Shown: piece by piece, positions 17,520 to 36,519 of the stretch
Numbering within the stretch: position 1 is the stretch's first letter
Layout of the letters: every line of letters starts with the position of its first letter
Virus record (IMG/VR): IMGVR_UViG_3300032770_000064
Span: 1 to 36,583 of that record
Reading direction: 5' to 3' (one strand)
Origin: a virus
DNA: 36,583 nucleotides
Position numbers and translations under genes: made by a program
Notes under the pieces: model-generated
What the model saw: only the letters and a program-made list of their open reading frames with translations
What the model was told of the DNA's origin: nothing
Database searches by the model: none

Positions 17520-17549
17520 CCCAGCCCCAGTCACTTGTTTGGGGTTGGG
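17520..17549 (-). terminator. terminator-like hairpin at the end of the fibre genes
   Basis: CCCAGCCCCA (17520-17529) pairs with TGGGGTTGGG (17540-17549), with one wobble and a 10-base loop. On the minus strand it spans the stop of the 163-aa gene and is followed by TTGGCTCTTT, a poor T-tract. It may act as a partial terminator or a 3' stabiliser. Confidence 0.45.
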
Positions 17550-18022
17550 CTTGTCCACTGTTGCGGACTCCGTTGTAGTGGTTTACCCGTGAACGGTGGT
17601 GGGACAACTGTACCTTGTACTGTTGCGTTTACTGTTGTTCCCTTAGCAAACAGGTTCACTGTCGCATTGCTGTAAACCACAGATGTCTGTCCCGGCACCT
17701 TGACTACCAATGTATTTGCATGGATGGTTGAGCTACATGATGGGTCACAGAAGTCCGCCTGTGATACTCCAGCCACAGACGGCTCTATGTCGATCCTTGT
17801 ACCACCCGAGTAATCCCGTGCAATAGTCATAAGTACGCTACTAAATCCTGCTGCCTGCTGTCCGGGTAGCGTAACAGTTAAGTTGGATGGCAACATGAGA
17901 TTGTAGCAAGTTACTGCCGGATCACAGGGAGTCAGCAGGGTAAGTGTAGCTTGACTGTGCGCTACGGTACATACCAGCACCATCATCAGCACAAAGAGAA
18001 TGTCAACGATCAGTCGCTTCAT
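17531..18022 (-). CDS. secreted 163-aa protein with Sec signal peptide
   Basis: ATG 18022 follows CTGGAGCATCCG. Residues 1-24 form a classic signal peptide (MKRLIVDILFVLMMVLVCTV, then AHS-Q with an A-x-S cleavage site). The rest is a beta-rich domain of immunoglobulin-like appearance (NLTVTLPGQQAAGFSSVLMT; IEPSVAGVSQADFCDPSC; PGQTSVVYSNATVNLFAKG) with two cysteine pairs that could form disulfides. It is one of four signal-bearing proteins in this block. Function unknown; an exported or envelope-associated protein is suggested. Confidence 0.65.
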   Translation of the reverse strand: MKRLIVDILFVLMMVLVCTVAHSQATLTLLTPCDPAVTCYNLMLPSNLTVTLPGQQAAGFSSVLMTIARDYSGGTRIDIEPSVAGVSQADFCDPSCSSTIHANTLVVKVPGQTSVVYSNATVNLFAKGTTVNATVQGTVVPPPFTGKPLQRSPQQWTSPTPNK

Positions 18023-18069
18023 CGGATGCTCCAGTGCGGCGAGAGCCGAAGCCCCCGCCGCGTTGGGGG

Positions 18070-18360
18070 TTAGAACTGCGTTGGCGCTCCCACTACCGGC
18101 GCAGCTGGAGGCGGAGGTGGTGACGGGAAGTTCTGGTCAACAGCGTTGCTCGGCCCTGACTCTTCGCCATTCAGCACTGCGGTAATCCAGAAATAGTACA
18201 GGGTTCCAGCAATACCGGTGCTGAACTGGTAAGGTGAAGCCGCCACGCCCGTAGCAATCTGCGTTGATGTAGCAAAGTCATTGGTGGTACTGTTGTAGAC
18301 GTTGAAGGTGCATCCCGGAGTCATTTCTGTCCAAGGGATTGATATTCCATGTAGTGCCAT
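18070..18360 (-). CDS. 96-aa fibronectin-III-like small protein
   Basis: ATG 18360 has AGGAG eight bases upstream. The protein looks like one beta-sandwich domain (CTFNVYNSTTNDFATSTQIA; PYQFSTGIAGTLYYFWITAV; LNGEESGPSNAV) with FnIII character, ending in a proline tract (PSPPPPPAAPVVG). There is no signal peptide. Such modules often decorate phage tails or capsids. It lies between two signal-bearing genes. Confidence 0.6.
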   Translation of the reverse strand: MALHGISIPWTEMTPGCTFNVYNSTTNDFATSTQIATGVAASPYQFSTGIAGTLYYFWITAVLNGEESGPSNAVDQNFPSPPPPPAAPVVGAPTQF

Positions 18361-18393
18361 GCGGTTACTCTCCTATCATGGGTTAGAGATGCG

Positions 18394-20028
18394 TTAGAAC
18401 ATACTTACAAAGTTGGCCGCTTTCGGCGGAGAGATTGCCCCTGCCGATGGCCGGAAGCCGCTTAGTAAAATCTGCCAGAAGCCGGTCGTGGTTGCGCTCT
18501 TGGCGTAGGTTGCCGTGTAAGTGGTCACTGTAGTAAGCAATTTATACGCCGGAGACTGAGGGCCATCTGAGCTAAGGTCAACCAGTGGGGATTGTGGTGT
18601 CATCGTTCCCGCTCCCTCGTAGACTACTCCTGTGGCATAGAACAACTCTCCCGGAACCAGCGGCGTGAACGAACCTGAGGTCACGTTGCCCGCGCCGGTT
18701 GCAGTCCCGGAACTGACCAGTACGTTGTCGTCGGCAATATAGTCGATGCCGGAAAACTCTGCTATGCCCGCCATCGAGAATACACAGGTTACGGTGTCTG
18801 CACCTGTCGAGGGGGCAAATCCAGCCTGAAATTGCGTAACCGGGAAAACCTGATTTGATCCAGAGCCAAGCATGTACGTCAGGTTGACATTGTGAAATGC
18901 CGTGTTCAAAGTATCGGTGCAGTACTGCACACCGCCACTGCCACTCGCCCCGCTCTGAACAAAACCCATCGAGACAATAACCAAATCCCCGCTAGTAACG
19001 TTGCTGGTGAACGCAAGATTGGTTTTATTAGTGGCTCCGACCTTGAACTGCACTTCGCTGATGGTGTTGACTGTAGCTCCTACTTTAAGGCTTATCGTCT
19101 CAGTCGCGGTGTTTGGCGTGGGTGTAGCGGAATCGGTGACCTTGAAGGTTATGGAGTTCAGCGTTGCGGCTGTCGGAGTGCCCGTGATGCAGCCCGTGGA
19201 GGTGTTGAGTGACAGGCCCGATTGCAGCGACCCTGAAGTGATTGACCATGTGTATGCACCGATTCCGCCCGCAGCCTGCAAGCACCAGTCATAGGAATTC
19301 GTAAGTGAGCCATCGGGGGCAGTGGCCAGACTGGTGACTGCCAGCGTTGGTGTGGTCTTGAGCGCGACAATCAGGGCGGTGACTTGCGTATTACCGTTGT
19401 TGATGAACGACGCTCCATAAGTGCCATTCGTGCCTGCGATGCTGAACGCGGTGCAGTTGGAGTCGCTACCTTGCGCAAGAGCGAATTGCTGCCAACCGCT
19501 CGTAGTAACAGTGCAGGAGCCAGAGCTTTGAAAACCGCCTGCGTAGCCAAAGAGCAAATCGTTGTTATAGGCTGTAGTGATATTGCCGGTAGCGAACGTA
19601 GAAGGAGTGCCCGTGGTCGTGGTCGAGGTTGAGGCGTCTACGGTTAGCGACCAGTAAGGTGGAAACTCCGCGCACGCTCCACCCTGAAACGCAGAGCTAG
19701 TCCATGTGATAGTAACAGCCTCGGAACCCGATGAACCCAGTATGGTTCCATAGACAGCTACCCGAATACTGTTGCTGGTGTTTATGTAAAGCTGCGTCCA
19801 CGAACTGCTGCGCGTATCGCTGAAGGTGGGAGAACCGCTGGAACTCTCTACACTCCACCCACAAATAAGCAAATTACCGCTGGTCACGTTCCTGTCCATC
19901 GTGATGGTCGTGGTACGCGACCGCTGGGTCTGTACGATAGGAATATAGGGATAGGACGCAGTAATGGATTGCCCCCAGCAGGGCAGCGACAGCGCGAGAA
20001 TGAGCCACCCGCACCTTATTGTGCGCAT
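18394..20028 (-). CDS. secreted modular adhesin-like protein, duplicated domain around a putative Ig domain
   Basis: A 544-residue protein. ATG 20028 (MRTIRC) is chosen because it has GGAG six bases upstream and starts a signal peptide (CGWLILALSLPCWG-Q); the longer frame to 20274 is antisense-like sequence within the fibre gene. Domain A (~22-225) contains NVTSGNLLICGWSVESS. A He_PIG-like domain follows (~228-318; AAGGIGAYTWSITSGSLQSG, STGCITGTP). A second copy, A' (~323-540), contains NVTSGDLVIVSMGF. The A-Ig-A' layout suggests a surface-binding protein. It overlaps the preceding fibre gene by 13 bases. No catalytic motif is visible. Confidence 0.65.
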   Translation of the reverse strand: MRTIRCGWLILALSLPCWGQSITASYPYIPIVQTQRSRTTTITMDRNVTSGNLLICGWSVESSSGSPTFSDTRSSSWTQLYINTSNSIRVAVYGTILGSSGSEAVTITWTSSAFQGGACAEFPPYWSLTVDASTSTTTTGTPSTFATGNITTAYNNDLLFGYAGGFQSSGSCTVTTSGWQQFALAQGSDSNCTAFSIAGTNGTYGASFINNGNTQVTALIVALKTTPTLAVTSLATAPDGSLTNSYDWCLQAAGGIGAYTWSITSGSLQSGLSLNTSTGCITGTPTAATLNSITFKVTDSATPTPNTATETISLKVGATVNTISEVQFKVGATNKTNLAFTSNVTSGDLVIVSMGFVQSGASGSGGVQYCTDTLNTAFHNVNLTYMLGSGSNQVFPVTQFQAGFAPSTGADTVTCVFSMAGIAEFSGIDYIADDNVLVSSGTATGAGNVTSGSFTPLVPGELFYATGVVYEGAGTMTPQSPLVDLSSDGPQSPAYKLLTTVTTYTATYAKSATTTGFWQILLSGFRPSAGAISPPKAANFVSMF

Positions 20029-21572
20029 GTCAACTCCAGCTCGAAATTGATATAGCCCGTACCGCTCGTCGTACCTAAGTTGGCTGCCACAATGTCGCCA
20101 GGTGTGAAGGTCGTCGTGGTAAAGTCTGTCAGTGTCGTGCTTTCTTTGACCGTTCCTGTGGAAAGCTGAACGCCGCTCGTGCTGATCGTATTCGATACCG
20201 TTGGAATGGCGGTGCCAGCGGCTACCTTCCACGTCTGGATTGTGCCCGTACCGGCATCTGCCGCAATGTCCCAACCTACTAACGTGCAGGCTGAACCGAA
20301 AGCAGCGGGCACAACGAAGTAGCCCAGCACTCCGGTTGAGAGTGCGGTGCCACCGGGTTGACCGGCTTGGAAAGAAATGGCGTGAACGAGCGTAGCCGCT
20401 ACAGGAAGATTGCTGGAATTCAGGCCAATGGCCGGGGTTGCACCGTTGGTGATAGCCGCATACGGAGTCCCCCCTTTCAACAAGCCGGTTGGTGCGCTAG
20501 ACGGAATCTGGCCTTCTTGAGCAGTGGTTGTGATCGTAGAAGCTGCGTCCTGCACCACAACACTGCGGTTAGCTGTCAATGCCGCCGTATTAAAGTCCGC
20601 CGCCTTGCTTGCCGAGCCTCCAATGAACACGTCGCCCCAAGGCAGCAGCACGGTGCCTAGATTCTTTGCAGCCGCAACAGAAGGTGTAATAGTTTCTGTA
20701 ACGGTAAGTGTTGTTGCATTGTCGTTTATATGTGCTGCGCCCAATCCACCAGAACCGTTGTTGGTTTGCAAATCACCAGACGAGCCAGCTACACTAAGGT
20801 GAGCAGGGCATGTTGAGCCAGCGGAGCATGTAAGCGTACCACCAGAATCAATCGTCAACGTCTGGCCACTGGCAACATGCCCCGGTACAAGCACATTAGA
20901 AGCGGTGGTAGTGCCAAACCCGCTAAACTCTCCTGCCGAACCAACACCAGAATCTACCCTTACTACACCAGTACCCGATGGAAGAACTCCAGTAACTGAA
21001 CCACATCCCGGCCTGCCTGAAGTATCTATAGCATTAACGTACTGCAAGCTAGGACAAGTACCACCCGGAATGTTCCCATTTACCTTAACTACACCAGGAT
21101 TAGGATAGGTTCCATCCAAGTCCCCTCCCGCTGGGCCGGTTGGTGAACCTCCACCCCCACCACCTCCTCCATTACCTGCTAGCTCCTGTGCAATCTCTGT
21201 TAGCTTATCCAACCCCCTACCAGTCGTCCCCGCCAACGCTGGCATGTTGTCATAGAACGCTATAGCTTGGGTTATAGGGGTGACCCTAGTCAGAACAACT
21301 GTACCAACTGTACATGGATATAGAGTCCCAAGTGTAACACTCCCACCATTGTTATAGTTATTGTTCAGGGGGACTACTGTATAACTGGTAGGAGTAAGTA
21401 CTGTACCCGCTAATGTCACAGTCAGTGCAGTAGGATCGCTGATAGGAAAGTTAAACACGTATGGGCCAAAGCCACCGCTGCATGTATAGGTGACACTATA
21501 GGGCACATCCGGCACTGTGGCCCATGCCGTAGGACAGCCCAACAGTATCAGCCATAGAAGTGCCCGCTTCAT
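20016..21572 (-). CDS. tail fibre with T7-type N-domain behind a signal peptide
   Basis: A 518-residue protein. Residues 1-18 look like a Sec signal peptide (MKRALLWLILLGCPTAWA). Residues ~22-132 match the phage T7 tail-fibre N-terminal pattern: YVFNFPISDPTALTVTLAG, PTSYTVVPL, TVVLTRVTPITQ and DKLTEIAQELA. A glycine tract follows, then GPAGGDLDGTYPNPGVVKV, a motif frequent in fibre shafts. The rest is low-complexity beta-rich shaft, and the tip (~400-518) is a beta domain ending ELTCAQ. GAGGGATGG precedes ATG 21572. A signal peptide on a virion fibre is unexpected. Confidence 0.75.
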   Translation of the reverse strand: MKRALLWLILLGCPTAWATVPDVPYSVTYTCSGGFGPYVFNFPISDPTALTVTLAGTVLTPTSYTVVPLNNNYNNGGSVTLGTLYPCTVGTVVLTRVTPITQAIAFYDNMPALAGTTGRGLDKLTEIAQELAGNGGGGGGGGSPTGPAGGDLDGTYPNPGVVKVNGNIPGGTCPSLQYVNAIDTSGRPGCGSVTGVLPSGTGVVRVDSGVGSAGEFSGFGTTTASNVLVPGHVASGQTLTIDSGGTLTCSAGSTCPAHLSVAGSSGDLQTNNGSGGLGAAHINDNATTLTVTETITPSVAAAKNLGTVLLPWGDVFIGGSASKAADFNTAALTANRSVVVQDAASTITTTAQEGQIPSSAPTGLLKGGTPYAAITNGATPAIGLNSSNLPVAATLVHAISFQAGQPGGTALSTGVLGYFVVPAAFGSACTLVGWDIAADAGTGTIQTWKVAAGTAIPTVSNTISTSGVQLSTGTVKESTTLTDFTTTTFTPGDIVAANLGTTSGTGYINFELELTCAQ

Positions 21573-21573
21573 G

Positions 21574-22116
21574 TTACCATCCCTCAGCGCGGAAGATTAA
21601 ATCCAAGGTAATGTTTGCACTATGTACAGTATTGACAGTTATCGCCACTGTAAGAGCGCTGCGTACCACTGGATAGCCCGTAACCACTGTCGAGGTCGTA
21701 AGGACTATAGGTGTCAACTGGGCAGCGGTGGAGCTACCATTCGTGGTAAGCAGTCCAGCATCCAGCGCAAATCCCTGCACGTCCTTAATAGTTACGGTGT
21801 AATTATTGGTAGGCTGTGTAGTCCCAGGAGTCCTGCCTACCTCATATAACCTATAACCAGTAAGATTATAAGTATTGAGTGCATTAGTGGGGTAGAAACC
21901 TGTGAGTGGGATGGTAATAGCTGGGAAGCTACCATCACTTGAGCTGCCCACACAGACTAGAGTTACAATTACTGTCCCTGAGTCTGCTATACGATTACTG
22001 GTAGCTGCAATCTGCGTGCTGGTTACATCTGACACTGCACAGCTACCAGCAGTAGCCACAGCATATGGGGCCAGTCCTAGAACGGCTAAGAGCAGCCCTA
22101 TAAGTAGACGTTTCAT
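21574..22116 (-). CDS. secreted 180-aa beta-rich protein with signal peptide
   Basis: ATG 22116 has AGGAGG six bases upstream. Residues 1-21 are a signal peptide (MKRLLIGLLLAVLGLAPYAV, A-x-A cleavage region). The mature part is Thr/Ser-rich and beta-rich (SGTVIVTLVCVGSSSDGSFP; NTYNLTGYRLYEVGRTPGT) and resembles pilus- or fibre-type sandwich domains. It ends one base before the fibre start. It could be a fibre accessory or an exported decoy; I do not recognise the family. Confidence 0.65.
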   Translation of the reverse strand: MKRLLIGLLLAVLGLAPYAVATAGSCAVSDVTSTQIAATSNRIADSGTVIVTLVCVGSSSDGSFPAITIPLTGFYPTNALNTYNLTGYRLYEVGRTPGTTQPTNNYTVTIKDVQGFALDAGLLTTNGSSTAAQLTPIVLTTSTVVTGYPVVRSALTVAITVNTVHSANITLDLIFRAEGW

Positions 22117-22125
22117 TTAACCCTC

Positions 22126-23382
22126 CTAGAAATCTATTCCCCAAGATGACAAGTCACTGAGGTTATCCTTCAGGTCATCCATACTGCCACTGGTCACAGT
22201 TAGCTCAGTACCCCGTACTTGCTCACCAATTTCCTTGACTTCCTCCGTGCAACTCTCAAGTGAATTACCGTAAGCAACGATGGCTCCAACTTCCTCACCG
22301 GAGTTTTGCGGGAGTATCCAGGTTTCTTTGCCGAACTGCGCTGCGTATCTGAGCTTAATCTGGTCACGGTACTCCTCTGGGAACTCTATGAGCATTGGCT
22401 TCTCTGGTGACCATTTGCTCTTAATGAGTACCTCGCAGCCGTAGCGTCCCCGATACTGCGGCTCTACCAGCTTGCCCCCAGAGCCTTCCCACATAATCTC
22501 CGGCAGGTTGGCAATCATGTTCAACTCCAGCTCGCTCACCGGAGAACCGAACCGGCAGCAGGGGTCAGCCAGCCACAGCCCCTTTGCGCCCACGCACGAT
22601 TCAAACGCAATCAAATTTCGATATTTGTACTGTTCCAGCGTTGGTGAAATTTTATCGTAGATGTCAACCAGCGCGGGCGGCATCTTGTTCCAGTCCTTCA
22701 CGCTGCACACGTAGCCCATGTCCTTCTGCTCCACGCCTAGCATGGCGCGGGAGGGGTACTCACCATCAATGCAGTAGGTGTCGATGGCTATGTCCAGCGT
22801 ATCGGGCAGATTGTCCTCCACCACAAAGTCACGGCTCTCGGCTACCGGCCCAAATTCAGCTTCCATCGTGTCCAAGCGGCCCTTAGCCAAGTCATAACCC
22901 TCGACGCTAAAGGTTTCAGTGTCTCCACGAGTGCGGTTAATCTTGACCCAGAGTTTGTCATGGCCCCGGCTCCTGATGTACTTCCTAAGTTCATCCATAC
23001 CTGTAACTATCTTGTATGGAGCTTGGGGGATGCCCAGTTCCTTGAAGTGCTCCTTAGCAGCAGTACGGTTGCACTCTAGCTCATCAGCATTACGGCTACC
23101 CCATACACGCTTGCCTATTGAAGCTAGGTATTCTTGCAATGGCCCTTGGTGAAGATCAGTGAATACGAATAGGTCTACATCGTCAATGATGTCCCAGATA
23201 CTATCCACACGTTCATAGTCTGGGAAGCCTTCACCTAGCTCTGTTTTGTACGAGCTTGGGAAGTCTGCTACCCAAGGGGAGGTATAGTATACATGCCCAA
23301 AGGACTGACTGAGCTTGCGGGCTACCTCCGCAAAGATGCCATTGTCGCAAATACAGACCGAGTGTGTAGAATGGTCAGCCAC
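22126..23382 (-). CDS. ATP-grasp ligase, GARS/PurD-like
   Basis: A 418-residue protein with the layout of phosphoribosylamine-glycine ligase-type ATP-grasp enzymes. It has a nucleotide-fold start (SVCICDNGIFAEVARKLSQS), FTDLHQGPLQEYLASIGKRV (74-93), GSRNADELECNRTAAKEHF (95-113) and GIPQAPYKIV (117-126). The lysine strand LWVKINRTRGDTETF (144-158) and FVVEDNLP bind ATP, and LADPCCRFGSP is the metal-site strand equivalent to E-N-R-GDP. The substrate is unknown. No other purine gene is present and the gene lies in the virion module, so nucleotide synthesis is doubtful and peptide or amine ligation is possible. The GTG start at 23382 overlaps the stop of the HELAE gene. A central part is GC-richer than its ends. 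Confidence 0.75.
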   Translation of the reverse strand: MADHSTHSVCICDNGIFAEVARKLSQSFGHVYYTSPWVADFPSSYKTELGEGFPDYERVDSIWDIIDDVDLFVFTDLHQGPLQEYLASIGKRVWGSRNADELECNRTAAKEHFKELGIPQAPYKIVTGMDELRKYIRSRGHDKLWVKINRTRGDTETFSVEGYDLAKGRLDTMEAEFGPVAESRDFVVEDNLPDTLDIAIDTYCIDGEYPSRAMLGVEQKDMGYVCSVKDWNKMPPALVDIYDKISPTLEQYKYRNLIAFESCVGAKGLWLADPCCRFGSPVSELELNMIANLPEIMWEGSGGKLVEPQYRGRYGCEVLIKSKWSPEKPMLIEFPEEYRDQIKLRYAAQFGKETWILPQNSGEEVGAIVAYGNSLESCTEEVKEIGEQVRGTELTVTSGSMDDLKDNLSDLSSWGIDF

Positions 23383-23756
23383 TATAAGCTCTCTACAGCC
23401 CTATTATAAGTACTCCACTTAACTCCCAACTCCTTAGCCAGCATCTTCTCTACCTTGGTAGCAAACTGATGCTCACGGTAGTAAGGGGCATTAGGATCAT
23501 CCCCAGGCTCACTCTCATCCCCACCCTTACGCTTGGCCTCATACGCGATGTCGAATAGGTCTACCTCAGACTGGCTGATGTTACGCTGCTTACATAGCAG
23601 GCACTCAGCGAGTTCATGGAAGGCTACTAGCATCTCATAGCGCCAGTTACGCATGTCTGAGATGAATATGGTAAGGTTATCGCCTTCCCATACCCAGTCC
23701 CCGACTGTTGGATACCGCTGTTGGTGGTTCGGGATAACTTTGATAGTTACCTGCAT
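23382..23756 (-). CDS. 124-aa HELAE-motif protein, zincin-like
   Basis: The protein contains VAFHELAECLLC (44-55), an HExxE variant of the HExxH zinc-protease helix with H47, E48 and E51, and a later PYYREHQFATKVEKML whose H96 or E95 could complete a metal site. SEPGDDPNAPY lies between them. Similar small proteins occur in phages, but I know of no proven activity. The start at 23756 overlaps the stop of the internal virion protein (TAATG), and its end overlaps the ATP-grasp start (TAGTG), so the pair is tightly coupled. Confidence 0.6.
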   Translation of the reverse strand: MQVTIKVIPNHQQRYPTVGDWVWEGDNLTIFISDMRNWRYEMLVAFHELAECLLCKQRNISQSEVDLFDIAYEAKRKGGDESEPGDDPNAPYYREHQFATKVEKMLAKELGVKWSTYNRAVESL

Positions 23757-26700
23757 TAGCGTGCCCCTGATAGATGATATCCCTTACGCTTGCTGCTATC
23801 CTTCTTTGGCCCCTCATGGTACACAGACGCACCAGCGAGAGCTGCTAGGAAGTCCTTATAGCTAAGACTCTCATCCGGGTTCATGTAACGCTCTACGATG
23901 TCCTTCACTACGAACGGGGAGGGGAATAACTGCTCTGCACCGAATGCCAGCTCCTTACCCGATTTGGTAAGCACATCCTCCTTGGGCTTATAGATTGGCT
24001 TACCCTGCCAGTCCTTATTAAGCAGCATTCTAGCTCCAGTGCCGAATAGCGGGGATGCTTTGTTAATGGAGAACTCTACAGCACCGGCAGGAAATCCATC
24101 CTTAGCTACCTTATTCATCAGTCCTACAGCATCCTTGGGAGCACCAGCAAGGAAGATACTACTATACATCTCCTTACCCTTGTCATCCTTACCCATATAG
24201 ACACTGAACGCTTGCTTGGACATCTGGCCTGTCAGGAATAGACTCATGCCTTGGGTCATTGCATATCCAGTAGCAAATGACTTTAGCCAGAACGCACGAG
24301 CAGCTTTACCTCCAGCCCCACCTTCGCCAGCATACTTCAGATTGGCTACGTTACTGAATGTCCAGTCAGGAGCAAGCAGGAACATACGAGCGATAGCTTG
24401 GAAGTTGGCGCTGACTCCCATAACCTCCCAGTTCAAGCCACCGTAAACTGCATTGACCTCTTTAGCTATCGAGCGCATGGCTGTGCCATATTCAGCGTCA
24501 GTAGCGTTAGGATGCTTGGCTAGCCATTGTGCTTCCTTAGCAGAGAAGTCTATTACCTTGAACTTACGCTGAACTACTTCAAAGGTAGCTTTGGTTACAC
24601 CCTTGAATATCTTATCTATAGGCTCGTAGCCCTTACGAACTGTATCGAGTAGAGTGCTACGATCCTCTACACTGGAAGGCTTAAGTCCCTGATAGGCTTC
24701 ATAGGGAGTACCAGTCTTGGTAGTCTCCAGACCATATAGTGCCCCCTTACGCTCCTGTGCCTCAAACTCAGGGGAGTTGTTATCAGTAGCTAGAGCCTTG
24801 CGGTAAGCGTCTATGCCAGCATTATTCATAAACGAGATGGTAAGTGCTCTCATGTGGAATGGTGACAGTCCTAACTCGATAGACTTAATGTAAGCCTGTG
24901 CCAGCTTTGCCACCTTCCAGTACTTAGCACCTGAGATTACATCATTCTCAAGCACAGGCTTCATAGCTTCGGCTATCTTTGGAGGAACGTGCAACCCCTT
25001 ACGTTCACCTGTCAGGGATACCCAGTTACGTGGGTAATTTTCAGTTTTCTCACCCGTTTCAGGGTCTTTCTCAACACGAACACCTTCCTTGCCAAGCTCA
25101 CTATTTTTCAGCTCCATTTCAAATACGCTACGAGCTACAGTAGTGCCTAACCTGTTACCGTACACTCGTAGTTCATCAACTGCATTGAAGGTACGCGCCT
25201 CTACCTCACCACTCTTTAGTGGTTCAAGGATTCGCAGGTATTCACGCCTAATATCATTTGGGGATCGTTTGGAGAACTTCCCCACACCCTTACCCGAAGT
25301 ATCCGCAGCCTGCCCAACCCCAAGCTCTGCCCTCTCCTCCTCATCCTCAATTAACCTTGTAAACAATCTGGGACTATAGCGGTTGGCGAATATACTACTA
25401 TCCAGCTTCATAAAGTTGGTTCGCAAGTCGCCAGTTTGTGAGAAGTAGTTAGTTAACAGGTCATCGGCTTTCTTGAAGTTATCAAAGTTCTCAGTTGGTT
25501 CCCGCTCACCTTCAATCCTATATTTAGAGTACTCTACAGGGTCTAGTATCTTTAATGCACGCTCCATTGATGGTATTGCCTGTTTGAGCTTTTCGTTACT
25601 GCCTGCACGTATCTCCTCTATATCCTTCTGAAGTGCATAAGGATCATCACGGTAGTCCCTGTAGAATGTCAGAGCTTCTTGGTCTATTGAGTCTGGTACA
25701 AGTTTCGCTACGCTGCTGGCAACCTGCTCCCCGTAGGCTCTGACCATGTTCCGTGTGCCTGTAAAGAGGGTACGAATAACTGACTTGCCATACCCCTCTG
25801 ACTTGTTCCCAGCTTTGATATTGTTTAGTTCCTCTCTATTCTTCGCAAGGAACCCTTGTAGCTCCGCAGACACACCTGTAAGTGTTTCATCACCCTCAAG
25901 TACAGTACGCTGGGCTACTCTATTCTGAGCCTCTTCGTAATCTGCTGCATGGAACTCTCCACCACTGATACCTTCCCACATAGCAAAGACTTCAGGCTCA
26001 TTATCACGTACCCATTTCTTAGCCTGTGTACGGCTTAGGAAGTCACCGCTCTGGGTAGTGAAGCCTCTACCTGACTTCACTAATGCTTTAGGTGGTATAT
26101 CCTCTGGAGGCGTACCTGACTCAAGCAATAACTGACTACTGGCAGTTTTCATCTCATAGGCTTTGTCAATTACCTGCTGGACTTGTATCTCAGGCTGGTT
26201 TAGTACCTTATCAATGGCTGATTGTGTTAGAGGACTACGTGGGCCAGTTACACTAGAGTCTAGCTCAAGGGAGCTAGCGCCAGTAACGCCAGCCTCAATA
26301 TCCCTTCCACTAAGCTCCTCCCACTGTTTAGTAGGTATATCTACATACTGTAACTCTCCACCTTTACGGTAGTTCTGTGCATACTCCTTACTAGTAGAGA
26401 AAAACGCTGGGCCTTCATATCTACCAGGCTCTGCACTGCCGTGATATAGCCTAGTCATTCCTTCTGCTGGTGGTGGAGCCTCGAATGTCTTATTAGACTC
26501 AAGCTCCTCAAGTGTAACAGGCGTTTCCCCTAATGCTGACCTAGCAACATCCTCATGCACCTCTCCTGGCTCCCCAACCATTACAGCTTCACTGCCATCC
26601 TTAGCAGTTACACGTATAGCAGGGCGTAGACCGTTCTCAGGGATGTTCTTGACAGGGGGCTGGGCAGCTACTTTGGTGGCTGTCTGCTCTGGTGTAGTAC

Positions 26701-27574
26701 CGTCCTTGGCATAGACATCAATCATGCCTTGCTTTACGCTAGGGAGAGAGCTAACAGCATGGGTGATAACTCCTAGCCCACCTACTAGAACAGCGTTACG
26801 CTCGAAGCTCTCAAGTGTGGGCATCTGCCCGTTAAGTATGGCACCAGCAATGGTCATTGCACTGGCTTGGTAAAAACCACTGAGAGCACTACCACCGAGG
26901 GGGCCAAGCACACTGGGTACTGGCAAGCCACCAGCATAGTGCATCGCCTCACCTGTAAGTAGACCCTTAGCAGACTCCCACAGAGCACTGCCAGTACGGC
27001 TAGCAAGGTCGCTAAAGTTGACTACAGTACCTTTCTGAAGCCTATCCATGTATGCCTTACGTAGTCCAGCATCTACAGTAAAGCCAACATCAGTACCTAT
27101 ACGCGCTCCTTGAGGTAGACCAAAGGACTGTGCTAGAGCACCAAGTACAGCAGGGCCATATAGCACAGGGTCTTTAGCGAACTCTGCCATGTCGTGGATG
27201 AAGTTATCCAGCATGTCATGAGACTCGAATGGTTCTGGGAGCTTCTTGTGGATGGCTAGGGAAAGGGGGTCATCCTCCACAGTAAGGTCTTTGCGGATAT
27301 TGGAAGCAAAGTCACTACCCGTAGCACTTAGACGTTGCTTAATGTAATCGTGCTGGTCATAGGCCAGTTTGGGGTCAGCGCCGGTCATGTGGGAGAAAAT
27401 CAGCGCGGGGAGCAGCTTTCCCATGTCGAGCAAATCGCTGATGGCCCCGCTGGAAGGTGCTACGGCCCCGTCCTGCGACGATGGCTGCTCAATCGGCGTC
27501 CAGCCCTCCGCCTGCGTTGTGGGACGCTCTGGGGCCGTTTGTGGCGATTCTGGCACTAGCGTCCAGCCAGCCAT
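23756..27574 (-). CDS. large internal virion protein (gp16-like) with ADP-ribosyltransferase-like segment
   Basis: A 1272-residue protein in the position of T7 gp16, the ejected protein that helps DNA enter the cell. The N-terminus is proline-rich with WTLVPE and WTPIEQ repeats. Hydrophobic stretches follow (~205-275). Residues 374-414 read TRLYHGSAEPGRYEG ... FFSTSKEYAQNYRKGG ... LQYVDIP, the R/H-Y ... STS ... pattern of ADP-ribosyltransferases. Upstream is a typical linker, KDGSEAVMVGEPGEVH; downstream is GDFLSRTQAKKW. The C-terminal ~700 residues are helical and contain MTQGMSLFLTGQMSKQAFS-type membrane segments. Such fused, injected effectors are known as polyvalent proteins. No lytic transglycosylase motif is visible. 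Confidence 0.7.
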   Translation of the reverse strand: MAGWTLVPESPQTAPERPTTQAEGWTPIEQPSSQDGAVAPSSGAISDLLDMGKLLPALIFSHMTGADPKLAYDQHDYIKQRLSATGSDFASNIRKDLTVEDDPLSLAIHKKLPEPFESHDMLDNFIHDMAEFAKDPVLYGPAVLGALAQSFGLPQGARIGTDVGFTVDAGLRKAYMDRLQKGTVVNFSDLASRTGSALWESAKGLLTGEAMHYAGGLPVPSVLGPLGGSALSGFYQASAMTIAGAILNGQMPTLESFERNAVLVGGLGVITHAVSSLPSVKQGMIDVYAKDGTTPEQTATKVAAQPPVKNIPENGLRPAIRVTAKDGSEAVMVGEPGEVHEDVARSALGETPVTLEELESNKTFEAPPPAEGMTRLYHGSAEPGRYEGPAFFSTSKEYAQNYRKGGELQYVDIPTKQWEELSGRDIEAGVTGASSLELDSSVTGPRSPLTQSAIDKVLNQPEIQVQQVIDKAYEMKTASSQLLLESGTPPEDIPPKALVKSGRGFTTQSGDFLSRTQAKKWVRDNEPEVFAMWEGISGGEFHAADYEEAQNRVAQRTVLEGDETLTGVSAELQGFLAKNREELNNIKAGNKSEGYGKSVIRTLFTGTRNMVRAYGEQVASSVAKLVPDSIDQEALTFYRDYRDDPYALQKDIEEIRAGSNEKLKQAIPSMERALKILDPVEYSKYRIEGEREPTENFDNFKKADDLLTNYFSQTGDLRTNFMKLDSSIFANRYSPRLFTRLIEDEEERAELGVGQAADTSGKGVGKFSKRSPNDIRREYLRILEPLKSGEVEARTFNAVDELRVYGNRLGTTVARSVFEMELKNSELGKEGVRVEKDPETGEKTENYPRNWVSLTGERKGLHVPPKIAEAMKPVLENDVISGAKYWKVAKLAQAYIKSIELGLSPFHMRALTISFMNNAGIDAYRKALATDNNSPEFEAQERKGALYGLETTKTGTPYEAYQGLKPSSVEDRSTLLDTVRKGYEPIDKIFKGVTKATFEVVQRKFKVIDFSAKEAQWLAKHPNATDAEYGTAMRSIAKEVNAVYGGLNWEVMGVSANFQAIARMFLLAPDWTFSNVANLKYAGEGGAGGKAARAFWLKSFATGYAMTQGMSLFLTGQMSKQAFSVYMGKDDKGKEMYSSIFLAGAPKDAVGLMNKVAKDGFPAGAVEFSINKASPLFGTGARMLLNKDWQGKPIYKPKEDVLTKSGKELAFGAEQLFPSPFVVKDIVERYMNPDESLSYKDFLAALAGASVYHEGPKKDSSKRKGYHLSGAR

Positions 27575-29370
27575 TATTGACCCTCCAGTTTCCAGCCGGA
27601 CGGCAAAGGTGTCCCAGGCGCGGCTTCATGTAGATTACCTTGTGGATCGCGGGCATAAATCTTGCTCGGTGTAGCAGTTGGTGCTTTACCAGCCGATGTA
27701 GATGTTGAGCCGAGTCCAGCTGGCTGTACAACAAAGAAGTTCCACAGTTTATCTATGAGGCCATTGGTGGATTTCTTCTTACCTCCATCTACTAGCTCCT
27801 TAGCCTTATCAGCTACCTGATTACCTGTAAGCCCACCCTGCCTGTATTCCCTCCTGAACTCGGCAGCAGTCTTGGCCTTCTCTACAGGGTCGAGTCCAGA
27901 GCTACCAATGATACCTAGGCCATTCTGATAATCAGGGTTATCCACACTGCGCTTATAGTCGTACCACAGTTCGTGTGCCTGCTTATTAGTTAGATTACCT
28001 TTATGTACCTCTGACTCTATATCCCTGTTGAAGTCAAGTTCCTCACCATTGGTGATACGCTCAAAGAGTCGGTCAGAGGTAGTATAGCCCTTTTCCTCAG
28101 CAGCACGCTGCTTATCAATATCTGCATCACGCTTCTCAGCACGGGCAAATCTAGCTTCTGCTCTCTGCTCTGCCTCCCAACTCTTAGCTCCATTCACTAT
28201 CTGTGGGTAATAATCCACTCTAGCTTTCTGGAAGTCAGGGACATACCTACGAGCTAGAGCCAGTCCCGCTCCAATCTTACCCTGTGCAAACAAGTCATAT
28301 ATCTCATCCCGCTCCTCATCAGCCTTCTTACGAGCTTCACCATAGAAATCAGTCTGTGAAGCGTTGATGTAACTCCTCAGCTTCTCCCCCTGTACAAAGT
28401 CGGCAATCGGCTTACCTGTGGATGGATCTGTTGTAACTATGCCATGAGCCATTAGGAAATCAGGGTCTTTGAGGGAAGCTAGTTGGTTATCGAAGTTAGG
28501 ATTACCAGCACTGTCAGAGTAGGGAGCAGACTTGAATACCTCATGCAGGTTATTGAGATTAACATTAATATTCTCAGTCTCAGCGAGTAGCGTTAGGCGT
28601 TTGTCAGTCTCCGCCGCGTGAGTGAGGAACTTGTTAATCTCGCCTTGGTCAAGAGTTGACAGGTCTAGCGGCCCTTTGCCCGTCTTGAGCTGGTCAATTA
28701 CTTGCCTACGTGTTAGGGGGTTAGGACTGTTGATATTAGCATCAAGCACACCAGCAGTAACGTCCTGTTTGAACTTGTGGAGGATAGCTTCCTGCTGTTG
28801 CGGCAGCATCGTACCCATAACATGCACGGAAGCATCTGTTGACATCTTCAGTTGGTCGTAAGCTTGGTCTGCATTACCGCCAGCCATCGTAGCATTGATA
28901 CCCTCTTGAACCTTCTTGTCATACGTGACCTTAGTAGCAGCCTCATCTCCCTTCTGAATGAGAGTAGCCTTCCTGCCATTAACCGTATTCTGTAACTCTA
29001 CGTCCTGTTGAGCACCAAAGATGGCTAGCTGCCTACCAAGTACCTTATCGTGCTCATAGGGAGCAAGGGTGTGTGCCAGTTCTCCCTTAGCATGGTCATA
29101 TACAGCCTGTGCATCTTCAGGCGTTGTAGTCTTGGCTAGGTCAGCATGAACCTGATTAAGTACCCTATCATAAGCTATCTCAGCTTCCTTGGCCTTGAGA
29201 TAACGCTGGGCCTTAATCAGATGCCCTTCAAACGCTAGATTAGCTGCTGCTAGCTGCTGAGTCTCTTCTCCAGCCTCATAGATAGCCTCTCCCACAGAGC
29301 CAAACTGACGCGGAGAGGCATGAGGTAGTGCTACAGGTTCATCAATCGGGAGTCCTGGTATTTGAGGCAT
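27574..29370 (-). CDS. internal virion protein (gp15-like)
   Basis: A 598-residue protein, highly helical and charged, with coiled-coil segments (LIKAQRYLKAKEAEIAYDRV; EQRAEARFARAEKRDADIDK). It has the length and position of T7 gp15, which forms the ejection tunnel with gp14 and gp16. It starts three bases after the gp14-like gene, and its stop overlaps the gp16-like start (TAATG). The C-terminus has a Ser/Thr/Ala-rich linker and DPQGNLHEAAPGTPLPSGW, a motif typical of phage virion protein ends. Assignment is by order and character, not by a diagnostic domain. Confidence 0.7.
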   Translation of the reverse strand: MPQIPGLPIDEPVALPHASPRQFGSVGEAIYEAGEETQQLAAANLAFEGHLIKAQRYLKAKEAEIAYDRVLNQVHADLAKTTTPEDAQAVYDHAKGELAHTLAPYEHDKVLGRQLAIFGAQQDVELQNTVNGRKATLIQKGDEAATKVTYDKKVQEGINATMAGGNADQAYDQLKMSTDASVHVMGTMLPQQQEAILHKFKQDVTAGVLDANINSPNPLTRRQVIDQLKTGKGPLDLSTLDQGEINKFLTHAAETDKRLTLLAETENINVNLNNLHEVFKSAPYSDSAGNPNFDNQLASLKDPDFLMAHGIVTTDPSTGKPIADFVQGEKLRSYINASQTDFYGEARKKADEERDEIYDLFAQGKIGAGLALARRYVPDFQKARVDYYPQIVNGAKSWEAEQRAEARFARAEKRDADIDKQRAAEEKGYTTSDRLFERITNGEELDFNRDIESEVHKGNLTNKQAHELWYDYKRSVDNPDYQNGLGIIGSSGLDPVEKAKTAAEFRREYRQGGLTGNQVADKAKELVDGGKKKSTNGLIDKLWNFFVVQPAGLGSTSTSAGKAPTATPSKIYARDPQGNLHEAAPGTPLPSGWKLEGQ

Positions 29371-30327: not shown

Positions 30328-31719
30328 TTAGTCCTGGTTGTAGCTCATCCTCAACACTAACCCACGTAGTGTAAAGGGGAATGGTACATCCTGAGTTATA
30401 AAGAATGTCGAGTTGTCATCCCAGTCAGCATCTAGGTCACGAGTTAATTCATAGTTCTTCAGTGAGCGGCACGGTGGGCAAAGGTTGACTGCTGAGATGA
30501 TAATAGCACAGCTAGCCGTGGCAGTTGCATCAAGTGAATCAGTTACCTCAGAGGTATATGGGTATGTACCGGGAGTTGTCGGGATACCTGTAATTATTCC
30601 ACTTGAGGCATCGAGTAACAATCCCGGTGGTAAGCTACCCTCAGTAATAGAGAATGTATAAGGTGGTGTACCTCCTGTAGCAACCAGAGCTGAACTATAT
30701 GGTACTCCTACCTGACCTGTTCCTGATGCACACGATAGGGTTATAGGGAATCCACCGAGGATAGCACCATATACGTTTGTATCATTAGCTTGGAGCCAGA
30801 CTACCTCAAATGTGGAGTCGTAGAAGTGCTTGAATGCTACACCAAGGTTAAAGGCTGGTAGGCCAGGGTTGAACCCTACGCCAGTAATTGGGCTTACATC
30901 AAGGCTGGATGCTACAAAGAAGCTGATCCCTGAAGTTAGCAATCCACCCTGTAACGGGCCGCTACCAGCATATCCTGATGGGTCAACTGAGTTTACTACC
31001 GTATGGCTGCTACATGACCACTTGTTAAGTAAGTTGTTCCACCAGAACAATAAGGTATCATCAGTGGCATCGTACTCTATTGTGTAGAGTACAAATGCAC
31101 CTCCCGCACCCAGTGAAAAGGATGTAATAGTGGGTGCTGTAGGAGGAGTATTAAGGGTTATAAGATCAATCGCCCCGTCAGTGCCATCTGTACTGATAAC
31201 CCAAATAGAGTTTGATGCACCTATTGCAACCCTAGAGCTTCCACTGTACGTAAGAGACGCTGAACCCTGTACCTCGAATGGAGAAAGAGTTATAATGGTT
31301 ACAACCGCGTGCCCTAGAACATCAGTGAGGTATATTAGGTTTCCATTACCATCTAGTATGGCATCCTGCCGCGCTCTAAGCGGGCCATCAGCAAAACCGA
31401 GAGCACCAAGATTGGCTAATGGTGTCCCATCATGAGCAAATTGGAACCATGTACCATACGCATAGCTACTCTCTACGTATATGTATAGATTACCGTTAGA
31501 GTGGTCACGTAGCAGAGGGCCATGAGGCCCACCAGTTCCGCAACCGTTGCAGCTACAGGTAACGTAGTGAAGGACTAAATCCCTGCCAATGGAACTCACA
31601 ACAACGTCGTAGTTACCAGGACTTGTAAGGGTTGAACTGAGTATCCAGTAAAGCGTACCTGTAGCAGGGTCAAGCTGACCTGTGTCGGTAAGGCCAAACG
31701 CTGGGTATGGGCCATACAT
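30328..31719 (-). CDS. 463-aa virion-associated beta protein with putative Ig domain
   Basis: The first ~320 residues look like a beta-propeller or repeated beta-sheet protein (GNLYIYVESSYAYGTWFQFA; ILDGNGNLIYLTDVLGHAVV; AIDLITLNTP). Residues ~326-410 are a putative Ig domain of He_PIG type (GVPYSSALVATGGTPPYTFS; GSLPPGLLLDASSGIITGIP). A short C-terminal domain (NLCPPCRSLKNYELTRDLDA) follows. It lies between the tail nozzle and the GNAT protein, where podoviruses often place an appendage or receptor-binding protein. No enzymatic motif is visible. Confidence 0.6.
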   Translation of the reverse strand: MYGPYPAFGLTDTGQLDPATGTLYWILSSTLTSPGNYDVVVSSIGRDLVLHYVTCSCNGCGTGGPHGPLLRDHSNGNLYIYVESSYAYGTWFQFAHDGTPLANLGALGFADGPLRARQDAILDGNGNLIYLTDVLGHAVVTIITLSPFEVQGSASLTYSGSSRVAIGASNSIWVISTDGTDGAIDLITLNTPPTAPTITSFSLGAGGAFVLYTIEYDATDDTLLFWWNNLLNKWSCSSHTVVNSVDPSGYAGSGPLQGGLLTSGISFFVASSLDVSPITGVGFNPGLPAFNLGVAFKHFYDSTFEVVWLQANDTNVYGAILGGFPITLSCASGTGQVGVPYSSALVATGGTPPYTFSITEGSLPPGLLLDASSGIITGIPTTPGTYPYTSEVTDSLDATATASCAIIISAVNLCPPCRSLKNYELTRDLDADWDDNSTFFITQDVPFPFTLRGLVLRMSYNQD

Positions 31720-31720
31720 G

Positions 31721-34399
31721 CTAGCTGTTCACCTTCCCATACTCGATATCGTACATATGCTTGGGGTCTACACCAAACTTACCACCGATGGACTGGTAGA
31801 GAGAGATAGTAACTCTATCCAGCTTCTGTTTCATGCCCCGTGTGGTTGCTGCTGGAGTAGTCAGGACTGGGTTAGTGGGCTGTACGGTCATCCTGTAGGG
31901 TAGCCCTATAGTTATCTTTGCACAGTAGTATTGGAAGGTAACAGTGTCGGAGGTAACTACGGTAGGCTGTAGTATCTGAGCCTCATCACCTACAGCTACC
32001 ACAGACTGTCCCAGCAGGTAACTCATGCCAGTTACTTCGTTGGTTACCTGAAGAGATGTACCACCACCTGTGTATGTTCCCCATCCAGTGGAGTCCACCC
32101 CAAGCAGTTGAAATGTCCCAGCAGCTATGTTAGCTCCAGCTACAGTATAGGCTTGGGTCTTGTCCTGATTAACCTGAGTCATACCCAGCACGCCAGCAAT
32201 CTGTACAAACTGACCATCCACGTAACCGTGACCGGGAGCTGTAACTACGCATGGATTAGCATTGGTGATGTTAGTAATATTTACAGCAGGGCCAAGGTCA
32301 AGTTGCAGGCCACAATGTACGAAGAATGCGTTAGATAGTTGGTTAAATAGCTCTTGCGGGTAGAAGTACTCAACATAGCGTACCACGGTTCCATTAATGA
32401 CCCGCTGCACCTCCACTACTACCATGTCCTCTTCATTCTGCCCACTGATTACAGCGACAGACTCAACGAATCCTCCACCTCGTAGGAGGTTCACCCTGAA
32501 CCATGCGTAGACCTGATCCTGCTTGTTGAACACCAGACCCACCAGCTGCCCATCCCCACGCACGAACCAGAATATCGGGTAAGGTTCAGCCTGGAATGCT
32601 GTCTGGACGACACCAGAGCATTGTGGGCCACAGCCTATGGTAATTTGCCGGTTAAGCCGGGTGAGGTCAAAGTTGTCCCATTCATTCGTGACAAAGTTGT
32701 AAGCAAGGAACATTACTTGTTTGGCAGAGCGGCTGACAAAGATTGCTGAGTCTCCTACCAGCTGGGCCTGTAGCGGAGCAACGCCTATAGTCGTCTGCTT
32801 TGAGGCTACAACACTTGACTGATTAAGGGAGGTGCCTGAGCCTCCACCTCCAGCCATAGCCCATACTCCACCTGCTGTGCCGAGTAACAGGGCAGTAGGT
32901 GTACCAATCAGGTTTACCACCTGATCTAGTAACGTACTAACAAGGGTAAACTGTATTGAGTGGTCATCCTCGTTAGGGTCACAGATAAACTCAGGGAAGT
33001 CATCCTGCGTGCTGCCGTAGAGCTTGGTAGGGTTGTTGTCTGTACCAGCTACACAGAGGCGTTCCTGATAGAATGTGCCACAAGCAGGGTATTCGCCAGC
33101 TTCACCAAACAGTTGCACTACCTTTACAGCAAAGCCGCCACCTGTGTAGGCTGGGTAGGAACTTGATACTACAGGTACGCTGGACATGTTCTGGCTGCTA
33201 GCACTGGTAGACCCACTAAGAGTATATGTGCCTACTCCACCAGTCCCAGTACCAAAGGATAGAATAGCAAGCCCATTAGGTACACCAGGGTAGTATAAAT
33301 CCATACCAACGAATAGTGCTCCTGCTGCTACAGCAGTCACCGTGAGTGTCGTACCGGAGATTGAGGCTGTGAATAGGGCACCAGAGCTGGGATCACCTTG
33401 ACCAGCGGAGATGATGTTATAGGCATTACCTCCACTAGCAGTCATGTCGATAGTGCCGTTGGTAAGCTGAATGACGCTTACCGTATAGGTTCCTGTTCCA
33501 CCACTTCCTGATACATAACCTGTGATGACTGTGCCGGGGAGTACTGCACCACTCAGTACCATACCTATGTATATAGTACCTGATGATACAGAGGTAACAT
33601 CTAGTACATTACCTGATTGTCCACCGCTACCGGGGCCATTGTTGATGTAGCCTGAGAATGATGCAACGGAGCCTGCACCAGAGATGGGTGTGACAAAGAA
33701 TTCCCCCTCGTTAAGTTCAGCCATCCCAGAGCAGAGATTAATGTATACCCGATCACCGTAGTCAAAGGGTGCGTCGGTAATCATCACCAAGGGAAAGGCT
33801 TGGGTGAGTTGAAGGATAGAGATGCCCAGAGCTTCAAAGCCAGTCTTGATTATATCGGTGGTTCCACGATAGGGTGGATCACCGGGAGTACCTTCAGGTA
33901 CACCAGCACCAGGAGGGTAGACGGTATAAGCCCAAGTTGATGCTCCTAATCTCTCTACACAGGCGGGTGGGTAGTCAGGGTGGAATACCCACAAGGTATC
34001 GGCACTCTGCGTAGAGCAGTCCAGCAGGAATAGGTCAGCCTGAGTGTATGGAGTAGCTAGCTCAATAGGCGTGCCCATGCTCTCTACCAGTCCAAGTGTC
34101 CATGTACCAGGAGTGGTAGGTGACCAGATACGAATGTAGCCAGCGGAGAATTCGAGTATGGCTCCTTGGTCGGTTGAAAACTGGAACGGAACTAGGCGGC
34201 AGGGAGCAACCTGATTCAGTGTGCTACCAGCAAAGTAAGTACCGGGCATCTTCTTGGCCCCACCCTCTACCAAAGGGAAACAGTTCTCCATGATCCGGCA
34301 GGCAGACTTGTACTTGCTGATGTCCTCTCGATTGAACAACAGTTCGCTTATTTCACCTGCGTTGAACGTGTTGACACTATGGTAGATTTTGGGTGGCAT
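31721..34399 (-). CDS. tail nozzle (tail tubular protein B/gp12-like) with two inserted beta domains
   Basis: An 892-residue protein starting [18 protein letters not shown], the canonical opening of gp12/nozzle-type proteins (F-N-x-G-E-x-S-P-L-L-x-x-R), followed by [20 protein letters not shown]. The start at 34399 comes two bases after the connector stop; the 15 extra residues of the longer frame lie in that gene. Two copies of a GTGTGGxGTYT domain (~residues 248-321 and 343-406) interrupt the core, which resumes with [20 protein letters not shown] and [10 protein letters not shown]. The C-terminal ~150 residues are beta-rich. The nozzle forms the distal tail tube of podoviruses. Confidence 0.8.
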
Positions 34400-34401
34400 G
34401 G

Positions 34402-35325
34402 TTAGTACCGATACCAGCTTACATAACGCCCTGCACGCTCCCACGACTCACTGCCTGCTTCGTCTTTTTGGAAATCGAACGTCTCATTCTGGGCCTCAGC
34501 ACTGTTAAGCGAGTCACGGTACATCTGCATCATGGCCTCAAACTTCTTGGAGTCCTCAGTGATAGCTATGGAGACTTCGGCTGCTAGGCGATTGGCTAGA
34601 CAGTTCACAAACCCTGGCATCAGTTGAGTGTAGTCTGTAATGAGCTGGATATAGTTAATCTTGGCCGGGCCGTGCCAGCCCCCATAGTCACACAACAGGT
34701 AGCGTCCTGATGAGCCAGATGGGTTAGGACAGCTCATAGTCTCGCTAGCTACAGTTTGTGCGTTATTGAGTGTGTAAGTACCTATCCCACCCATCCCTGT
34801 ACCAAGAGCTGAGATAAAGGTTCCCGCAGTGACACCATCACCGTAGAGTGGTTGGCTAACCTGTACAGTACCATTAGTCACTGCGGTGACAGTTAGGACA
34901 GTACCAGTAATGCTCCCCACAAAGCTGGCCATTGCTGGTAGCGTTTCTACTACGTAAGGGTACTGGTGGGGGTGGAAGGGCATATCATCACGGTGATACC
35001 ATCCCCATCCTATTCCCCATCCCCATGCCCATAGGTAGTTATCATGCTGGGGTTTACGGTGAGGACGTACAAAGCGTAGAAAGTCAGCAGGCATAGCCCA
35101 TGCGTGACGATAGGCATAGAGCGGGCGTTGAGGACTAAGTTGTAGCTCAGTGCGTATCTTGGCAAACTTCCAATCCCGCTCGCTGAGTACCTCCTGAAAG
35201 ATAGCATCCCATACCGCCAGTACCTTTATGGCATTAGGGGTATTCTCGTTCAGGTCGGTAATGGTGCCACGCGCACCTATGCGACCGAGAGCCAAGTTAG
35301 CAATGCTTGCCTGACTATAGTTCAA
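34402..35325 (-). CDS. tail tubular protein A/head-tail connector (gp11-like) with inserted domain
   Basis: A 307-residue protein. The N-terminus is typical of gp11/connector proteins: [40 protein letters not shown] and [16 protein letters not shown], then [18 protein letters not shown]. Residues ~134-198 are an inserted beta domain ([18 protein letters not shown] ... [13 protein letters not shown]) shared with the nozzle and the cement protein. The family core resumes at [40 protein letters not shown] and the ending YVSWYRY. It joins the portal to the nozzle. Confidence 0.8.
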
Positions 35326-35769: not shown

Positions 35770-36519
35770 TTACTGCTCGCCGCCAGTCCTAGGCCCAAAG
35801 TAACTAACGATGGTTCCAAAGGTTGGGTTAGAACCAGCGGAGTCGTCAGCATAGAAACGCAGGAACTCCAGAATGGAGCTTTGCGGCACCGGGATAAAGT
35901 AGTGTGCTCCCACTACCTCAAGCTGTGCCAGCGTGAGAGTACGAGAAGCAATCGGGTTGGGTGATGCGTTGTACAGTGCCGATGTATGTGCAGCAGTACA
36001 GACATCAAAGACAATGTTGGTTAGAGTGTTGAACGGAGAAGTCACAAGGATGTGAATTCCGAACTCTGCACCACCATTGCCGGGGATTTCAGCCGGGAAG
36101 GTGTAACCCTTCTCGGTGAGGGAGGGGAATTGAGGTAGCCAAGGATAGGCAGTGCCAGCACTGGGAGCGCCAAAGTCAAGCTCCAAGTTGCTGTACTGAG
36201 CGCCGGAAGCGCAGATTGCATCGCCTATGATGGTTGGGCCACTCGCTGTGGTTGTGGTTACGGTTTGAGAGGCGTTGACCGTAGCCGTGCCTGTGCCACC
36301 AGCTCCCGTGAGGATAGCGGTGATGGTCACGTTCTGCTGAGTGTAGCCACCACCCGCGAGCACAAAGGTCTGGCCCACGATTACCTGACCCGTTGCTACG
36401 GTATAGGTCAGTGTTGTACCCGACTGTGAAACACCAGTCAGGGTCACTGCGGTTGAGGTTAACGGCCCACTGGAGGAACCGCTACCGTGGAGATATGCAA
36501 GTGCATCACTGTAGGGCAT
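35770..36519 (-). CDS. capsid cement-like protein (Bbp16-like) with inserted domain
   Basis: A 249-residue protein. The N-terminus is PYSDALAYL. Residues ~22-95 are a Gly/Thr-rich inserted domain (GTTLTYTVATGQVIVGQTF ... ILTGAGGTGTATVNASQTV). The rest follows the pattern I associate with Bbp16-like cement proteins: GDAICASGAQYSNLELDFGA, GGAEFGIHILVTSPFNTLTN, GAHYFIPVPQSSILEFLRFY and DDSAGSNPTFGTIVSYFGP. It is directly downstream of the presumed major capsid gene. GAGGAGG six bases before ATG 36519 implies strong translation, as expected for a stoichiometric capsid decoration protein. Confidence 0.65.
   Translation of the reverse strand: MPYSDALAYLHGSGSSSGPLTSTAVTLTGVSQSGTTLTYTVATGQVIVGQTFVLAGGGYTQQNVTITAILTGAGGTGTATVNASQTVTTTTASGPTIIGDAICASGAQYSNLELDFGAPSAGTAYPWLPQFPSLTEKGYTFPAEIPGNGGAEFGIHILVTSPFNTLTNIVFDVCTAAHTSALYNASPNPIASRTLTLAQLEVVGAHYFIPVPQSSILEFLRFYADDSAGSNPTFGTIVSYFGPRTGGEQ

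Follow-up and report, generated by a model that had tools for sequence, protein, structure and literature searches.

The window, the whole 36.6-kb virus record that was analysed, carries on its minus strand a late block of the T7 type in which tail tube A, tail tube B, the internal virion proteins, a small protein and an ATP-grasp-like gene are followed by a fibre block (Table 1). The minus-strand open reading frames starting at 22116, 21572, 20028 and 18022 are real, with the starts as placed by an earlier note on this DNA, and a purine-rich Shine-Dalgarno-like stretch is located just 5' of each. They encode a companion protein, a tail fibre precursor and two further signal-bearing proteins, and the start of the 544-aa protein gene overlaps the 3' end of the fibre gene. 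Two mature cysteines were invariant among the seven aligned members of the 180-aa companion family. The late block of signal-peptide proteins described in that note stands with regard to the four signals, but the interval also holds a 96-aa ORF that carries none. A protein of one relative (G012:26074-26946) resembles this ORF in look and has a signal-like start with a score of 11.2.

Table 1. Features of the fibre block in the window. A hyphen within residues marks the predicted cleavage site, and scores are those of the signal-peptide scorer.
Feature	Positions	Strand	Basis
Companion protein, 180 aa, signal AVA-TAG (scorer prefers ATA-GS)	21574..22116	-	Score 24.8; family of 7 aligned
Fibre precursor, 518 aa: signal peptide, podoviral attachment domain, shaft and C-terminal putative tip	20016..21572	-	Score 21.8; homology, fold, profile comparison, PHROG_1640 in relatives
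Fibre signal peptide, residues 1-18, MKRALLWLILLGCPTAWA-TV	21519..21572	-	Scorer; found in 18 distinct clade fibres
Fibre attachment domain, residues 19-131, including Cys31 and Cys87	21180..21518	-	Homology, fold, profile comparison
Fibre C-terminal putative tip domain, residues 376-516	20025..20447	-	59% identity with C-terminus of G005 separate signal-bearing protein
Signal-bearing 544-aa protein, CWG-Q	18394..20028	-	Score 14.5; Ig-like He_PIG domain (PF05345, E = 1.7e-6) at residues 245-316
96-aa ORF within block, no signal peptide	18070..18360	-	ORF call and scorer
Signal-bearing 163-aa protein, AHS-Q, four mature Cys	17531..18022	-	Score 15.7

Searches of Pfam and PHROG matched no known family for the 163-aa protein, a family search gave none for the 180-aa companion, no firm family match was obtained for the 96-aa ORF and the large exported proteins had essentially no matches in Pfam. 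The window had no match in Rfam, and its block had no direct match, as DNA or as protein, and no nucleotide relative in the phage collection. Bacterial genomes searched with the fibre domain and tail tube B gave no prophage or host match. Directly upstream of the fibre block, the ATP-grasp-like gene (22126-23382) matched PF01071 only at E = 0.043; it shares 60-81% identity with genes in five viral contigs and had no match in the phage collection. The small protein whose gene stays beside it (23382-23756) contains an HExxE motif (HELAE; HEAVE in the L002 homologue) and is possibly metal-binding. The two tail tube proteins, A (31721-34444) and B (34402-35325), and a third late protein (35770-36519) all matched phrog_38233 and phrog_21413, which suggests that several tail proteins share one domain. 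A 463-aa late protein (30328-31719), flanked by tail tube B and the internal virion proteins, includes a He_PIG Ig-like domain (E = 1.5e-15).

Signal peptides were predicted with a scorer written for this analysis from general rules (n, h and c segments and -3/-1 preferences) and calibrated on E. coli K-12, where 15 of 17 Sec proteins and one of 103 cytoplasmic proteins (Mqo) passed the threshold of 12. Prediction, which the earlier note had proposed as a check, placed all four proteins above this threshold (14.5-24.8) and confirmed that four late genes of the window encode predicted Sec-type signal peptides. The weakest signal was that of the 544-aa protein (WG-Q), whose start was fixed by hand for scoring, the automatic caller having picked another. 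None of the remaining called genes in the window scored 12 or above. Across 16 lineage records, 43 of 692 called ORFs reached this score, the gene calls being mechanical and including some spurious ORFs. Non-fibre genes with scoring signal peptides were grouped around the fibre in 12 lineage records (21/166 within 6 kb of it vs 6/377 elsewhere, P = 2.8e-7). Under the same procedure no such genes were found in T7, Skadi-1, ZP6 and the examined part of PfDIW6, one was found in BcepC6B and two in the examined part of ct8d5349. A lipobox was also sought, and a cysteine at +1 of the predicted site was present in 0/4 window proteins, which speaks against a lipoprotein of the Llp-like superinfection-exclusion type. 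Chance hydrophobic N-termini were rejected on the calibration of the scorer and the conservation of the signals. Judged from these features, the signals are almost certainly functional and are very likely to be cleaved.

The predicted mature part of the fibre matched the N-domains of podophage fibres by tblastn, including those of ZP6, BcepC6B, the Vibrio VP2 group and Pelagibacter phages, and in all 40 matches listed the alignment started at query residue 25 or later, past the signal. In all seven of the matched phages inspected, the annotation places the protein start immediately ahead of the domain and no signal is present. A profile-profile comparison with ten podophage fibres gave 99.4% over 116 columns, running from column 1 to column 1, although T7 gp17 alone as the profile partner gave no match. 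PHROG_1640 was matched in relatives with E down to 4e-17, from residue 20-22 in signal-bearing and from residue 1 in signal-less members, and the window's fibre protein searched alone against PHROG had no match. The fold was compared using an AlphaFold2 model of a signal-less clade member, G005, in which the first 80 residues mostly had pLDDT above 90, and residues 4-81 of this model were closest to attachment domains in virion structures (LME-1, Z 10.2; HRP29, 9.3; Carin 1, 9.1; T7, 9.0 and 8.2). By both sequence/profile and fold the domain is a podoviral fibre attachment domain of the PHROG_1640 / T7 gp17 type. The earlier note had placed a T7 fibre N-domain directly after the signal; its position and its nature as a podoviral attachment domain were borne out by tblastn homology, PHROG_1640, fold and profile comparison, but the gathering cut-off of Pfam PF03906 (Phage_T7_tail) was reached by no member, the best of 20 members having E = 0.0018, the L002 homologue scoring 14.2 bits against a cut-off of 25.2 and the window having no match.

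Lineage members were collected by IMG/VR searches with the companion, the ATP-grasp gene, tail tube B and fibre-domain alignments as queries. The survey of related phages suggested in the earlier note recovered the same arrangement of signal and attachment domain in 18 distinct fibres, one from the window and 17 from relatives, and the arrangement is therefore not a product of chance. The signals have diverged further than the domain (mean pairwise identity of 0.30 vs 0.61 in the 18 fibres), yet a basic n-region and a short hydrophobic core were kept throughout and position -1 is Ala in 18/18 fibre homologues. With a small neutral residue at -3, these features are in keeping with Sec export and signal peptidase I. 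The uncharged stretch of the fibre signal measures at most about 15-17 residues. The predicted cut after Ala leaves an N-terminus of 'TV...' (AV in one fibre). Cytoplasmic homologues without a signal mostly start with 'M TV' or 'M TI', and since an initiator Met followed by Thr is ordinarily removed, cleavage would yield the same N-terminus that these homologues have when mature. An internal restart downstream of the signal was rejected, as just 8 of the 18 fibres have GTG for the +2 Val and no ribosome-binding site precedes this codon in the window. Profile searching found exactly one such attachment domain in each of 17 records, some of which may be fragments, and so gave no sign of an additional copy lacking the signal; these genomes could still encode a fibre whose N-domain is unrelated.

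Two cysteines occupied fixed positions of the domain in all 18 signal-bearing fibres (residues 31 and 87 of the window precursor), while neither was present in the signal-less clade members G005 and L079 (0/2), giving an association of the Cys pair with the signal within the clade of P = 0.005 in a naive test that ignores kinship. These two members are sisters inside a well-supported clade (99/99), with their own placement weak in a domain tree that has many weak forks, and being sisters they may have come to lack signal and cysteines in one evolutionary event. Six of seven signal-less podophage homologues had no Cys in their first 150 residues and the seventh (J2) had one, beyond the domain. 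An even number of cysteines was found in 36/43 non-redundant signal-peptide proteins that contain Cys compared with 181/351 other ORFs (P = 3e-5), and Cys per 100 aa came to 1.90 in long signal-peptide proteins compared with 0.87 for the remaining long late ORFs. No Cys occurs in the window's two largest internal virion proteins, of 1272 aa (23756-27574) and 598 aa (27574-29370). Cysteines that are even in number, conserved and associated with the signal are the pattern that disulfide formation outside the cytoplasm would be expected to leave, and disulfides probably form in the exported proteins.

Fibres of the T7 gp17 type (T7, HRP29, LME-1, BcepC6B gp18, ZP6 and Pelagibacter phages; PHROG_1640) have the same attachment domain by sequence, profile and fold and the same gene position after the internal virion proteins, but differ from the window fibre in having Met directly before the domain, no signal and no Cys pair in the domain. 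In G005 and L079, a separate signal-bearing protein (L007:12622-15981 and L079:5077) comes after a short signal-less fibre of about 360 aa; for the G005 one, a direct search of the phage collection gave no match. The G005 protein shares its C-terminal domain with the window fibre (59% over 149 aa), and thus the same putative tip bears a signal both as a separate protein and fused to the attachment domain. Together with ct8d5349 (MW202898), these two genomes resemble the window in possessing a large signal-bearing protein directly after the attachment-domain fibre, but differ in that the attachment-domain protein is short and lacks the signal and the Cys pair. In a further relative, G001, a plain phage lysozyme comes after the fibre.

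Among cultured phages, BcepC6B gp19 (L105:20959-22032) and Xanthomonas phage PBR31 orf035 (L107:2932-3741) are signal-bearing fibre-like proteins of the fibre region with scores of 19.5 and 17.9. The signal is carried there, unlike in the window, by a separate small protein, and the adjoining gp18 fibre of BcepC6B and tail spike of PBR31 are signal-less. Fibres of Autographiviridae also contain the C-terminal part of gp19. The apparent signal peptides of gp19 and orf035 are unannotated in their records. For PBR31, the esterase gp40 is the one protein to which a signal is ascribed in the published passages found (PMC10975493). Host Sec export is likewise used by genes for phage envelope proteins including Lom, a phage-encoded beta-barrel envelope protein with a Sec signal (PMC12309495), spanin lipoproteins and signal-bearing endolysins (for a further example see PMC8951688), but these act in the envelope or in lysis and have no virion-attachment domain.

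The arrangement suggests that the host-recognising part of the virion is produced beyond the cytoplasm and added to the particle at a late stage. In textbook tailed-phage morphogenesis, tail fibres are folded and attached in the cytoplasm. The explanation we prefer, at a probability of roughly 0.6, is that Sec exports the fibre module, that cleavage and disulfide bonding follow in the periplasm, and that the module docks at or after lysis on virions assembled in the cytoplasm. The fibre with its T7-type attachment domain and the companion proteins would be made as Sec precursors and carried to the periplasm by the host Sec machinery, signal peptidase I would cut after Ala to leave the 'TV...' N-terminus found in Met-processed cytoplasmic homologues, and host thiol oxidases would make the disulfides, one of them within the attachment domain. 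Assembly of heads, tail tubes and internal proteins would take place in the cytoplasm as usual, and once lysis proteins had opened the envelope the finished fibres would dock on the tails via the attachment domain. Of the options raised in the earlier note, fibres that mature in the periplasm gained the best support, from the Ala at -1 in every signal-bearing fibre, the homologue N-terminus that the cut would restore and the Cys pair that tracks the signal.

The separate parts of this explanation differ in strength. The sequences show the signals, the cleavage motif, the identity of the domain, the link between Cys pair and signal and the single attachment domain in each genome examined, and they support export well. 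That the proteins are in fact exported, form disulfides, enter virions and dock when the cell lyses or later is inferred. Presence of the fibre in virions is highly probable, and joining at or after lysis is slightly favoured. The P22 tailspike can be added in vitro to finished particles, which makes late docking of fibres plausible; docking at lysis would have to be efficient, since released fibres dilute. Assembly in two compartments, with head and tail cytoplasmic, receptor-binding fibres periplasmic in an oxidising environment and infectivity gained only once they are joined at lysis, has about even odds. Cultured phages such as BcepC6B and PBR31 would show a looser form, with export confined to a separate distal fibre.

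The timing of joining is unconstrained by sequence, and the same sequence evidence would be left by a fibre module that is exported and present in virions but meets the particle before lysis, the tails docking at the inner membrane or the precursor remaining membrane-bound until assembly. This is unlikely, as the examined tail-tube and internal virion proteins match ordinary podoviral families, no membrane-docking part was recognised and the inner membrane separates a cleaved periplasmic protein from cytoplasmic particles. The proteins may alternatively be exported and cleaved without entering the virion, acting in the envelope or outside it as decoys, as receptor blockers or by binding glycans, and so limiting superinfection or the adsorption of new virions to debris. 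Sec signals on several adjoining proteins, companions that match no recognised virion family and the known envelope proteins with Sec signals, Lom for example, would fit such a role, but the fibre keeps a virion-attachment domain that a decoy would not need, as the sole copy in each of the 17 records, and periplasmic proteins would require a further secretion step to reach the cell surface. We consider it rather improbable; the exported decoys proposed in the earlier note are thus disfavoured for the fibre, although the companion proteins could still be decoys. The hydrophobic N-terminus directly before a tail-contacting domain was also proposed to be a virion anchor, which is very improbable given a sequence that diverges fast while its basic start and cleavage motif are kept, an uncharged run of at most 15-17 residues, homologues that attach without such an N-terminus, the same type of N-terminus on unrelated neighbouring proteins and its link to cysteines.

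In the full-text literature, the coverage of which leaves out most subscription journals, no earlier account of a Sec signal on a tail fibre was found. Two candidate precedents were rejected, gp38 of SD286 having no signal peptide (PMC12946066) and the signal sequence in Circe belonging to the o-spanin (PMC13001222). The component parts are known and, as far as found, the combination of signal and fibre domain is new. The late joining of fibres that it suggests for a group of uncultured short-tailed phages would run contrary to textbook tailed-phage assembly. If periplasmic maturation and late docking are true, export would permit disulfide-stabilised fibres, would keep receptor-binding domains from cytoplasmic defence sensors and would delay infectivity until release. 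The annotation and expression of such fibres would also change, with the signal removed and an oxidising compartment used. Part of the proposal is testable now in the cultured phages whose arrangement is related.
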